Source: Chloroflexota bacterium (GTDB lineage: Bacteria; Chloroflexota; Chloroflexia; Chloroflexales; Roseiflexaceae). From it: a stretch of DNA of 64,000 bases. The DNA lies in contig JACAEQ010000108.1 of NCBI GenBank assembly GCA_013388755.1, positions 1 to 64,000 of the forward strand, in the 5' to 3' direction. The notes beneath the pieces are model-generated. The model was not told the DNA's origin. It searched no databases and saw nothing but the letters and a program-made list of their open reading frames with translations. The position numbers and the translations under genes were made by a program. The stretch's first letter is position 1. The number at the start of each line of letters is the position of its first letter. Shown one piece after another: positions 24,461-60,146 of this stretch.

Positions 24461-24556
24461 GCGACGGCACCCTTTAGTCGACGCCCGTCGAACCATGCGG
24501 GCAATAGAACGGAGACTGCGCACCCGCACAGCACTGGCTACATTCAGTGGCCAGTC

Positions 24557-24565
24557 ATTGTATCA
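24557..24565 (-). promoter_or_regulatory. Extended -10 promoter of the CoA-transferase/thiolase operon
   Basis: On the minus strand TGA-TACAAT (hexamer 24557-24562) lies about 97 nt upstream of the subunit A start. The -35 is poor, as expected for an extended -10. It faces away from the rightward promoter at 24712. Confidence 0.45.
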
Positions 24566-24711
24566 TGCAGGCGCTCGCATCTGCGATGAGATTGTCTGGC
24601 GATCGCTCGCAATCACCGGTCCGGCGGGTGGATCGATGCCCTCTCGCTGATCGCGCGGCAATGCTCCGGACATGTTGTGCGACCCATGCCCTGTGATGCC
24701 GGGTAAACCTC

Positions 24712-24762
24712 TTGACATGCAGCGAAAAACCACTACAATTCCTATCTGGTGAATCATTCACC
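24712..24762 (+). promoter_or_regulatory. Consensus sigma-70 promoter with perfect palindromic operator
   Basis: TTGACA (24712-24717), 16 bp, TACAAT (24734-24739). A perfect 15-bp palindrome, GGTGAATCATTCACC (24748-24762), covers the predicted start site, so a dimeric repressor bound there should block transcription. The core TGAAT-n-ATTCA resembles operators of TetR-type fatty-acid and acyl-CoA regulators, but the regulator is not in the window. It drives the leader of the decarboxylase gene. Confidence 0.75.
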
Positions 24763-25141
24763 ACGTTGTATTCGCGCTCTCCGGCACAGATCGGTACGCC
24801 TGCGCGGCGCCCGGCACCTGTGCATCCAGCGCCGTGGCCGGTGCCTTTCCGCAACGGCGAATGGTTCCGGTTGAGCTTTCTGCGATGTTGTATGGACGGT
24901 AAGGCCAACTTACGTTGCCGCGACCTGTCGCGCCTGGCGCTGACGCAGCACCTGGCGTGTGGTTCGGCGCCTGCCGTTCCGGCGCGTCACCCCTGACGCG
25001 CCCGTGCTGCGCGCGCCCCCGCACCCGGGTGGTGCGGGGTTTTTTGTGCCCTTCAGCTGCTGCGGCGCACCCGGTCGCCCCGACTGGATTCGTCGTGCCG
25101 GTGATTCTGCCGGCCAACTGCAGACTGGAGGTTCACTCAAA
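24763..25141 (+). other. Long structured leader of the decarboxylase gene
   Basis: About 380 nt without a convincing gene. It contains a GGCACC/GGTGCC hairpin (about 24810-24846), a possible 34-codon leader frame from ATG 24892 to TGA 24994-24996, two adjacent strong hairpins (24981-25045), and then a GGAGG ribosome-binding site at 25127. I could not match it to a known riboswitch family. Confidence 0.55.
24981..25045 (+). terminator. Stacked hairpins with intrinsic terminator (attenuator)
   Basis: Hairpin 1 pairs GGCGCGTCA (24981-24989) with TGACGCGCC (24994-25002) around a CCCC loop. Hairpin 2 pairs CCCCGCACC (25017-25025) with GGTGCGGGG (25031-25039) and runs into six T (25040-25045), a textbook rho-independent terminator. 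It stands about 97 nt before the decarboxylase start and after the promoter, which makes attenuation of that gene likely. The stop codon of the possible leader peptide sits inside hairpin 1. Confidence 0.85.
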
Positions 25142-26707
25142 TTGAATGGGCAGACCTACGCCGATGTACTCACCGACCGCTATGGTGTCGGCCCCGAAGG
25201 AACACTCAACGATTTTATCAGCCGTCGCGACGCACGCCTGCTGCTGGCGGACCAGATCGACCTGAATGCCATGGTGGCGCGCTACGGCGCGCCGCTGGAA
25301 GTGGCATACTGCCCGCAGATTACGCTCCAGGTCGAGCGCATGCTGGGCTGGGCCGCCGAGGCTCGCGCGCGCAGCGGATATGCCGGCGAGTTTCTCTATG
25401 CCTATGCCACAAAAGCGAACTTCGCCGAGGAGGTCGTGCGCACGGCGATCAGCGCCGGCGCGCATTACGAAACATCGGCCGCCGCAGACGTTGTGATCGC
25501 GCAGCGTCTCTGGCGTCAGGGCGTGCTGCCGTCCGATCGCTATATCTTCTGTAACGGTTCGAAGGATGCCGCATACATCGCAGCCATCGTCGCGTTGCGT
25601 ACCGCCGGCTTCACACGTGTCGTTCCGGTGCTCGATGATATGGAGGAGCTTGAGGCATTGCTGGCGGCGTGTGATCTGCCGCTCCTGCTGGGGGTGCGTG
25701 AGCGCCACGATCCCGGTGATGTTGATGTGCGCCACCCGGGCGGAGAACGTTTCGGCCTGACGCCGGTTGAGATCGAACGTGTTGTGGAGCGACTGCGTCA
25801 AACGCCGCACCAGCTGGTCATGTATCACGCGATGGTCGGCAGCCAGATCGAGGACGCGGCTCACTGGAACACGCGACTGGCGCGATCGGCCGGGGCGTAT
25901 GCGCGGTTGCGCCAGGCAGCCCCGTCGCTGGCGTTGTTTAACTTTGGCGGCGGCATGCCGACGTCGGCATACTCGCTTGGCTTTGATTTTGACTATACCG
26001 GGTTCCTTCAGCGCCTGATGCAGACGCTGGCCGCAACGTGCGTGGCGCACGAGGTGCCGCAACCGGGGCTGGTTGGGGAGTTCGGTCGCTACACGGTTGC
26101 GGCGCACAATGTGTTCATCCTGGAAGTGGGTCGTGTCAAACACGGCCAGGACCGTGCGCCCGACTGGCTCCTGCTCAACGGTAGCTTGATGGTCTCCCTG
26201 CCCGACAGCCTGATCGTTCCGGGGCAGGAATTCATCATTCTGCCACTCGATGGCTGGGATCGCCCGGCACGCCAGGTGCGTCTCGGCGGACGCGCCACCT
26301 GTGACAGCGATGATTTCTTCCCGCGACCGGGCAGCCAGCCGCTGTTCCTGCCCGCGCCGTACGAGGGGCAGATGATCGCCGTCTTCGGTGTTGGCGCGTA
26401 CCAGCAAATGATCGCGGGCCGGGGCGGCGCGCACCACTGTCTGACACCAGAAATGCGGCGCATCATCATCGAACGCGATGAGGATGCACTGGTCGTGCGC
26501 GAAATCGAGCCACAGAGCCTGGGGCAGATCATGGGGTTGCTCGGGTACGCCGACGTCATGCTGGAACTGCCGGCACAGCGACCGACACGTGTGCCCGTTG
26601 AGCGGCGTACCACGCGTGACTCGCAGCGGCCAGCACGGCCGGCACGCCGCCGTGGCGCGGCGCGCATCCCACAGCAGGCGCGCTATGGCGCCAGCGCGCG
26701 ATCATGA
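25142..26707 (+). CDS. Group IV PLP-dependent decarboxylase, arginine decarboxylase-like
   Basis: 521 residues from TTG 25142, which has GGAGG 10 nt upstream; no in-frame ATG lies near. The alanine-racemase-fold barrel carries the PLP lysine K91 in YATKANF. ICFC-like FCNGSKDAAYI, YHAMVGSQI, FNFGGGMP and VGEFGRYTV are the counterparts of the SpeA and LysA motifs NGYKD, HLGSQI and GGGLG. The CNGSKD element favours an arginine-decarboxylase-like enzyme over diaminopimelate decarboxylase, but the usual SpeA insertions are missing and the C-terminus is an Arg/Pro-rich tail of about 40 residues. Expression probably passes the upstream attenuator. Confidence 0.75.
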   Translation: MNGQTYADVLTDRYGVGPEGTLNDFISRRDARLLLADQIDLNAMVARYGAPLEVAYCPQITLQVERMLGWAAEARARSGYAGEFLYAYATKANFAEEVVRTAISAGAHYETSAAADVVIAQRLWRQGVLPSDRYIFCNGSKDAAYIAAIVALRTAGFTRVVPVLDDMEELEALLAACDLPLLLGVRERHDPGDVDVRHPGGERFGLTPVEIERVVERLRQTPHQLVMYHAMVGSQIEDAAHWNTRLARSAGAYARLRQAAPSLALFNFGGGMPTSAYSLGFDFDYTGFLQRLMQTLAATCVAHEVPQPGLVGEFGRYTVAAHNVFILEVGRVKHGQDRAPDWLLLNGSLMVSLPDSLIVPGQEFIILPLDGWDRPARQVRLGGRATCDSDDFFPRPGSQPLFLPAPYEGQMIAVFGVGAYQQMIAGRGGAHHCLTPEMRRIIIERDEDALVVREIEPQSLGQIMGLLGYADVMLELPAQRPTRVPVERRTTRDSQRPARPARRRGAARIPQQARYGASARS

Positions 26708-31268: not shown

Positions 31269-31303
31269 CTGGCAACCTGACAGGTACATTCACAATGTTG
31301 CTC

Positions 31304-31424
31304 TCGAGGCGACCCGTTAGCCCGGATGCTAGGGCGTGAAGGTGGAAGCTGGTGCAAGTCCAGCGCTGTGCCGCAACTGTAAGCTGCCGCTCATTTCGGC
31401 AGCAAGCCAGGACGCCTGCCTCGA
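31304..31424 (+). promoter_or_regulatory. Cobalamin riboswitch
   Basis: Closing stem TCGAGGC (31304-31310) with GCCTCGA (31418-31424). Between them are the conserved cobalamin elements GAAGCTGGTGCAAGTCCAGC, GCCGCAACTGT and AAGCCAGGACGCCTGCC in the right order. It precedes a lipoprotein/permease/ATPase set that fits B12 uptake. A terminator follows at 31513-31543, so ligand binding probably stops transcription. Confidence 0.92.
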
Positions 31425-31461
31425 ATGCGTCGGTGCCCTTCTCGTGACAAGGAGGTGACGC

Positions 31462-59772: not shown

Positions 59773-60146
59773 ACAGAGCCAGGAGGCGCCATCATCAGCG
59801 ACGGCAAGAACTGGCGTCGTGGTCCCGAACGAAGCGTGAGCTGGCTGGCGTGCACGGATCAGAGCGATGCCGCGCACAACTATGACCCGGCTTAGCGTCC
59901 ATATCCCTTCAATAGAACGCCCCCTCGGGCGCGCCCGGGGAGGCAGGCGAAGCGCTTGCTCCTCCCCTGCTTGGGCTTTGGCACCATACAGCGTAGCACC
60001 CCTGCAGTCGCTTTAAGGCGAGCCTTAGCTCGGGTCGCCCTGGTCCACCCCTGAGCGTCTTTCGACGGGCCGGGGCAACGACTTCTGTCTGTACGGACGC
60101 CGCACCTAACGAGAGAGCACGACTATCTGGCCGGCAATACCGGCTA
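59741..60146 (-). ncRNA. Candidate structured noncoding RNA, about 406 nt
   Basis: Minus-strand transcript from a consensus promoter at 60153-60181 to an intrinsic terminator at 59741-59772. Many local stems are visible: GCCGG/CCGGC near the 5' end, CGTC-GAAA-GACG inside a CCCC/GGGG helix (about 60043-60079), CGAGC-TAAG-GCTCG (about 60020-60033), and a long GGGGAGG/CCTCCCC hairpin near 59938-59966 followed by a near-palindrome around 59919-59944. Searches by eye for RNase P (GAGGAAAGTCC), tmRNA, SRP (GGAAGGNAGCAGCC) and 6S signatures failed. Confidence 0.6.

Follow-up and report, generated by a model that had tools for sequence, protein, structure and literature searches.

A conserved decarboxylase leader in Chloroflexales is probably an undescribed RNA switch

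The leader of a decarboxylase gene in Chloroflexales is probably an undescribed RNA switch that sets transcription of this polyamine-pathway gene. We analyzed it in a window, i.e., the whole 64,000-nucleotide stretch of Roseiflexaceae DNA, and in the upstream regions of related genes. The same plan recurs in 65 of 70 decarboxylase upstream regions, spread over four Chloroflexales families, and 62 of the 65 leaders are distinct. From 5′ to 3′, the plan comprises a strong promoter, a short hairpin (P0), a usually two-armed domain closed by a helix (P1), a Shine-Dalgarno site, a uORF, a hairpin at the uORF stop codon, a terminator, and the gene (Table 1). The uORF opens with ATG-RACG and runs for 22 to 42 codons. 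In the minimum-energy fold of the whole window leader, P0 and P1 are both present and the 3′ part takes the terminator form. Comparison of the sequences shows the promoter, P0, P1, the architecture of Shine-Dalgarno site, ATG, and stop, the stop hairpin, the terminator, and the exclusive linkage to the gene.

Table 1. Features of the decarboxylase leader and gene, in window coordinates
Feature	Position	Strand	Basis or remark
Sigma-70-type promoter, TTGACA-16-TACAAT	24712..24739	+	Sole promoter-like site in 24500-25200; shuffled sequences give 0.1 +/- 0.3
P0, 5′-terminal RNA hairpin	24747..24763	+	Window fold; covariation in relatives
P1, 5′ strand (GCTC.CCGG)	24776..24785	+	Window fold; pairing in relatives
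P1 domain interior; the sequence varies, and relatives mostly have two arms (three-way junction)	24786..24866	+	One arm predicted in the window
P1, 3′ strand (CCGG..GAGC)	24867..24876	+	Permutation z -9.6; double-sided changes
Conserved flank; relatives have their Shine-Dalgarno AGG here (-7 to -5)	24877..24891	+	Degenerate in the window genome
uORF, 34 codons, MDGKANLRCRDLSRLALTQHLACGSAPAVPARHP	24892..24996	+	Length kept in relatives
Left arm of the proposed antiterminator (uORF codons about 20-24)	24949..24962	+	Window fold; weak in relatives
Stop-codon hairpin, GGCGCGTCA-CCCC-TGACGCGCC	24981..25002	+	TGA at 24994-24996 opens the 3′ arm
Intrinsic terminator	25017..25045	+	Hairpin at 25017-25039 plus T-tract; strong
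Main-gene Shine-Dalgarno site (GGAGG)	25127..25131	+	Mean Shine-Dalgarno energy of -10.5 kcal/mol in relatives
SpeA-like PLP decarboxylase (alanine-racemase fold), TTG start	25142..26707	+	PF02784; TCDSD motif

Distribution of the leader

A search of 158 class genomes for the decarboxylase protein found it in 81, and up to 700 nt were read upstream of 70 of the genes. Five regions lack the core: two lie too near a contig end, two come from outside Chloroflexales, and one (G028) carries a one-base variant of the same uORF start (ATGGACAG). With zero mismatches allowed, the core pattern matched in 39 of the 158 genomes, a single time in each, and a control pattern matched once. All but one of these matches (38/39) lie immediately upstream of a decarboxylase match. 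Among 301 genomes sampled across the phylum, the core pattern gave only two matches outside Chloroflexales, equal to the control's total. Because the matches are single, adjacent to the gene, and confined to the order, the leader is a cis-acting element, present once per genome, of a single gene in a single order.

The original prediction had been made from the window's letters alone, and the leader it described is kept, beyond what chance would give, across Roseiflexaceae and the rest of Chloroflexales. It stands before the same gene, and neither of the two outcomes named in advance as refuting the prediction was seen. A DNA search found it in other Roseiflexaceae, with Roseiflexus and Kouleothrix assemblies among the closest leader-bearing relatives, and in the alignment of this family the promoter, the 34-codon frame, and the terminator are retained, as are the region of the palindrome and several motifs. 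The sample consists largely of draft and metagenome assemblies; representatives were thinned at 80% identity, and the statistics given below take no account of the tree.

A match in Spirosoma (L023) was discarded as a chance match within a coding frame. A second leader copy in a Roseiflexus metagenome-assembled genome (G012, contig C63; L018/L025) lies on a small contig of far lower coverage and probably represents a second strain rather than a duplication.

Promoter and 5′ hairpin

The predicted promoter is present, and most leaders of Chloroflexales have the same -35 and -10 elements at a spacing of 16 to 17 nt. The perfect 15-bp palindrome noted on the start site is there as well (an odd palindrome, GGTGAATCATTCACC, at 24748-24762). 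It had been read as an operator, giving double control by a repressor at the start and a termination decision in the leader. The relatives speak for something else. Nearly all leaders have a short hairpin directly past the -10 box, and its sequence differs from one to another, with arm pairs such as GGTGAA..TTCACC, GGTTGA..TCAACC, GGCTGG..CCAGCC, GCGGTT..AACCGC, GGTCAAT..ATTGACC, and GGTAGT..ACTACT. Among 19 arm pairs that differ in sequence, 98.9% of cells are paired, versus 66% after shuffling, and 27 cells show double-sided changes, versus 7, where the arms were chosen as pairing segments and the shuffle control preserves column composition, not relatedness. The covariation score is 0.90, compared with 0.21 for shuffled columns, and all slid registers collapse. 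Individual P0 hairpins are often no better than shuffled sequence, so the weight of P0 comes from its recurrence at one site with changing letters and not from the stability of any single hairpin.

Could an operator produce the same pattern? Covariation alone is indecisive, because a symmetric operator would covary as well. Two other features separate the possibilities: G-U pairs make up about 10% of the pairs in relatives, and the loop varies from about 3 to 9 nt. Because of these, P0 behaves as an RNA stem rather than as an operator with fixed spacing. A palindromic repressor site would keep its half-sites and their spacing and would recur at other members of a regulon; P0 keeps neither, and a genome-wide search for the palindrome returned no other exact copy. 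The model of a repressor at the palindrome combined with an attenuator would explain why a perfect palindrome stands on the start site, but it is highly improbable given the G-U pairs and variable loop length of its covarying counterparts, the single exact site in the genome, and the unconserved neighboring genes. Of the proposed double control, the termination decision is likely, while the repressor and its operator find no support.

The divergent CoA-transferase operon had been suggested to share the regulator. The gene 5′ of the leader differs between genomes, and the CoA-transferase genes are not conserved neighbors. Since the palindrome is unique and the 5′ gene varies, a common regulator is unsupported, and we rejected common control with the divergent CoA-transferase/thiolase genes.

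The P1 domain

P1 is formed by a segment 80 to 170 nt upstream of the uORF start and a segment just upstream of the uORF Shine-Dalgarno site. Strand pairs in other genomes include GCTCATCTGG/CCAGATGAGC, GCTTATCTGG/CCAGATAAGC, and GTTCATCTGG/CCAGGTGAAC, as well as ACCCACTCGA/TCGAGTGGGT and GCCCGTTCGG/CCGAATCGGGC. Native arms pair with a mean energy of -16.3 kcal/mol, compared with -11.2 kcal/mol for arms swapped between genomes, a difference reached in none of 10,000 permutations. In ten contiguous examples, both sides have changed at 9 of 10 pairs and 96% of cells are paired, a percentage inflated because pairing energy helped locate the left arm; slid registers reach at most 49%. The double-sided changes, flanked as they are by conserved sequence, are the stronger evidence for P1. 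Folded alone, all 34 representatives have the domain closed by P1, versus 160 of 680 shuffled sequences, and 25 of the 34 folds show two inner arms (mean folding z of -2.5). With P0 and P1, the leader has the conserved, covarying 5′ secondary structure that is expected of a riboswitch.

How such a domain might control ribosome entry was approached by further covariation tests. No signal was found for a pseudoknot between the P0-P1 linker and the Shine-Dalgarno flank, for sequestration of the Shine-Dalgarno site by the P1 interior, or for pairing of the P1 strands with the uORF, and no pairing among those tested explains control of ribosome entry. Sequence conservation is concentrated at P0, at the P1 base, and in the Shine-Dalgarno flank, not in a large junction core. 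Such a distribution would suit recognition of the leader by an RNA-binding protein, perhaps an autoregulator, rather than by a small molecule. We nonetheless judge this distinctly unlikely, since there is no candidate protein and the leader occurs once per genome, in linkage to one enzyme gene.

In leaders of the Chloroflexaceae type (e.g., L086 and L093), the P1 interior has a common segment around TTCCGGGAAGGCACCCGGCAC and GCAACACGCAACACCGAAC. This segment resembles a repeated element, one that could be a competitor of P1.

The uORF

The 34-codon leader frame, originally put forward as a possibility, proves to be real, and its length is what relatives maintain. In all 36 representatives, frame 0 stays within 22 to 42 codons (standard deviation, 4.3). 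The other two frames from the conserved ATG range from 0 to 131 codons (standard deviation, about 28), and of the remaining ATGs in these regions, only 19% open frames of 22 to 42 codons. The ribosome site is retained too. Most leaders have AGG at -7 to -5, and the anti-Shine-Dalgarno energy has a median of -5.65 kcal/mol at the uORF compared with -1.8 kcal/mol at other ATGs (p, 4e-12). The clearest local exception is the window genome itself, where the site is degenerate (-0.2 kcal/mol); it is strong in nearly all relatives. As a family, then, the leaders have the Shine-Dalgarno site, the start, and the in-frame stop before the main gene that characterize a uORF-coupled attenuator, with the Shine-Dalgarno site degenerate in the window. 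The uORF appears to be translated.

The encoded peptide tells a different story. Synonymous changes are not favored (0.33 in frame versus 0.26 and 0.37 in the other two frames), no coding signature is visible in the codon-position entropy, and past the first codons the peptides are unrelated between families. Arginine is not enriched, at 12.9% versus 12.0% in the other frames. Because the start, the ribosome site, and the length are constrained and the peptide and its arginine content are not, translation is the likely input, and selection seems to act on translation itself rather than on its product. A stalling peptide like SpeFL, or an attenuator based on arginine codons, might be suspected from the resemblance to E. 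coli speFL, both in the length of 34 codons and in the polyamine-pathway gene, and from the MDGxxNL start and GSxPA-like tail common to the Roseiflexaceae peptides. However, the leaders have neither the conserved peptide of arrest-peptide leaders (SpeFL/TnaC type) nor the codon enrichment of an arginine attenuator, and with peptides unrelated between families and no excess of synonymous change in frame 0, both forms of this explanation are improbable.

The start of the uORF is more conserved than translation would require. ATGRACG is nearly invariant, with GAC and never GAT, partly because the search pattern selected it, and its letters are not absolutely required, as the G028 variant illustrates. 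Such tightness could mean that the segment serves as RNA, either in addition to being translated or in place of it. Pairing between the uORF start and tail is modest (Stouffer Z of -2.9) and clearest in Roseiflexaceae. In the most direct form of an RNA role, a metabolite riboswitch would act on the terminator itself, with ATGRACG within the aptamer and the uORF incidental. The nucleotide-level invariance of UAUGRACG (in part a product of pattern selection), the covariation of the junction domain, and a spacing from GACG to a conserved ACAAY that seems to differ between lineages by non-multiples of three would all fit. Against this, frame 0 is the one frame kept at its length in every representative, the Shine-Dalgarno sites are retained, and all three stop codons are in use (TAG in 14, TAA in 12, and TGA in 10 of the 36 representatives). 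We therefore consider a direct riboswitch unlikely.

Terminator, antiterminator, and proposed mechanism

Two adjacent hairpins, the second a terminator 97 nt before the gene, had been predicted, and both are found, with the 97 nt counted to the TTG start. The hairpin at the uORF stop recurs in relatives (Stouffer Z of -8.8), and 32 of the 36 representatives have a terminator 13 to 64 nt past the uORF stop, so that the intrinsic terminator 3′ of the uORF seen in uORF-coupled attenuators is present as well. A strong terminator might also end a stand-alone small RNA, with the gene served by another promoter. The window has no promoter-like site between terminator and gene, and the linkage to the gene is kept across Chloroflexales, which leaves this explanation next to no probability. 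In relatives, a second GGAGG-like site often lies between the terminator and the gene, followed by a possible second short frame (L040, L041, L045, and L046-L049). This frame starts with AUG in one genus, where the peptides end in VVRxRQRG; elsewhere, the start is apparently AUA or AUC.

The last 98 nt of the window leader fold as an antiterminator, not as the terminator. In this fold, uORF codons about 20 to 24 pair with the 5′ arm of the terminator, and the stop hairpin is nested within. In relatives, the best partner of the terminator 5′ arm is often at codons 19 to 23, a weak signal (173 of 5,000 permutations) that is marginally better than chance across the set (Stouffer Z of -1.86, versus +0.76 for the uORF head). 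We take an antiterminator that overlaps the uORF, distinct in the window fold and weakly supported in relatives, to be likely.

Taken together, we favor a cis-acting RNA attenuator of transcription that operates by way of a uORF, irrespective of the encoded peptide, a model to which we give about even credence. P0, P1, and the inner arms end where ribosomes bind to enter the uORF, and would set how often they do so. The folded domain may respond to a metabolite of the polyamine or arginine pathway. A ribosome that reaches the uORF stop would sit on the stop-codon hairpin and clear the antiterminator strand (codons about 20 to 24); the terminator would then fold and the decarboxylase would not be made. 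When the ribosome is absent, the antiterminator would form and transcription would continue into the gene. We infer the antiterminator, the direction of the effect, the control of initiation, and any ligand, which are parts of the model beyond the comparison. More specifically, the leader might represent a novel class of riboswitch with a compound of the polyamine pathway (agmatine, putrescine, spermidine, or arginine) as its ligand. Its aptamer would gate entry into the uORF, whatever the peptide, and the ribosome would set termination; we advance this only tentatively.

The decarboxylase gene

The gene had been called arginine-decarboxylase-like, in agreement with its closest PDB relatives, which are biosynthetic arginine decarboxylases (diaminopimelate decarboxylase is about 40 to 50 bits behind), and with the TCD[ST]D motif of the arginine decarboxylase group, kept in all homologs checked. 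The score for the SpeA equivalog (biosynthetic arginine decarboxylase) is 133.8 bits, far below the NCBIfam cut-off of 369. Another member of the fold, with a better score, is encoded separately in the genome, which also has ureohydrolase-family genes. Arginine decarboxylation is our best guess for the enzyme, judging from sequence. Most Chloroflexales homologs start with TTG behind a very strong Shine-Dalgarno site.

Elsewhere in the window are a cobalamin riboswitch (31290-31437, + strand), upstream of an apparent periplasmic binding protein and permease pair, and an M-box (magnesium) riboswitch (59957-60120, - strand).

Comparison with known systems

No known riboswitch had been recognized in the leader at the outset, and a scan with Rfam 15 (including riboswitches, T-box, Chloroflexi-1 RF01698, and SAM-I) gave the same answer, with nothing above the gathering cut-off in the leader or in the loci of 15 relatives. 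Text searches of the open-licence literature turned up no previous description of the leader in Chloroflexales.

Several systems resemble it in part. uORF attenuators precede biosynthetic genes in Corynebacterium, as the ilvB-II motif (PMC10272879), and, as a candidate, in Streptococcus, before fthC (PMC11109978). Like these, the Chloroflexales leader is conserved before one biosynthetic gene and has a Shine-Dalgarno site, start and stop codons, and hairpins; ilvB-II also has an antiterminator and an intrinsic terminator. In ilvB-II, the amino acids under regulation are overrepresented in the peptides; here, by contrast, the peptide is unconstrained, and a covarying P0/P1 domain lies 5′ of the uORF. 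In Mycobacterium tuberculosis, uORFs accompany B12 riboswitches, which are known cobalamin aptamers that act as translational off switches (PMC11260477). There, as we propose here, the gene is controlled jointly by a folded sensor and a translated uORF, but the Chloroflexales leader has no known aptamer and places an intrinsic terminator 3′ of the uORF.

Two systems concern polyamines directly. E. coli speFL relies on ornithine-dependent ribosome stalling on a uORF (cited in PMC7815308), and like our leader it puts a short frame before a polyamine decarboxylase gene. Its stalling takes place within a specific peptide, and Rho is involved, whereas here the peptide is unconserved and the terminator is intrinsic. 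In Gram-positive bacteria, polyamine genes are under a spermidine riboswitch derived from SAM-I (PMC10853860), with RNA control and premature termination ahead of them of the sort that we propose; unlike that switch of Gram-positive genera, the present leader has no SAM-I match in Rfam. The anatomy of the Chloroflexales leader is matched by none of these compared systems.

The leader adds an undescribed, order-wide cis-regulatory RNA to a phylum in which few are known. Because it is tied to a single polyamine-pathway gene, the question of its ligand is directly testable. If the proposed relay is true, the uORF is a pure ribosome-driven lever that links an RNA fold to the termination of transcription, and its peptide is uninformative. 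The leader would then be a second, unrelated RNA route to the control of polyamine synthesis, besides the SAM-I-derived spermidine switches.
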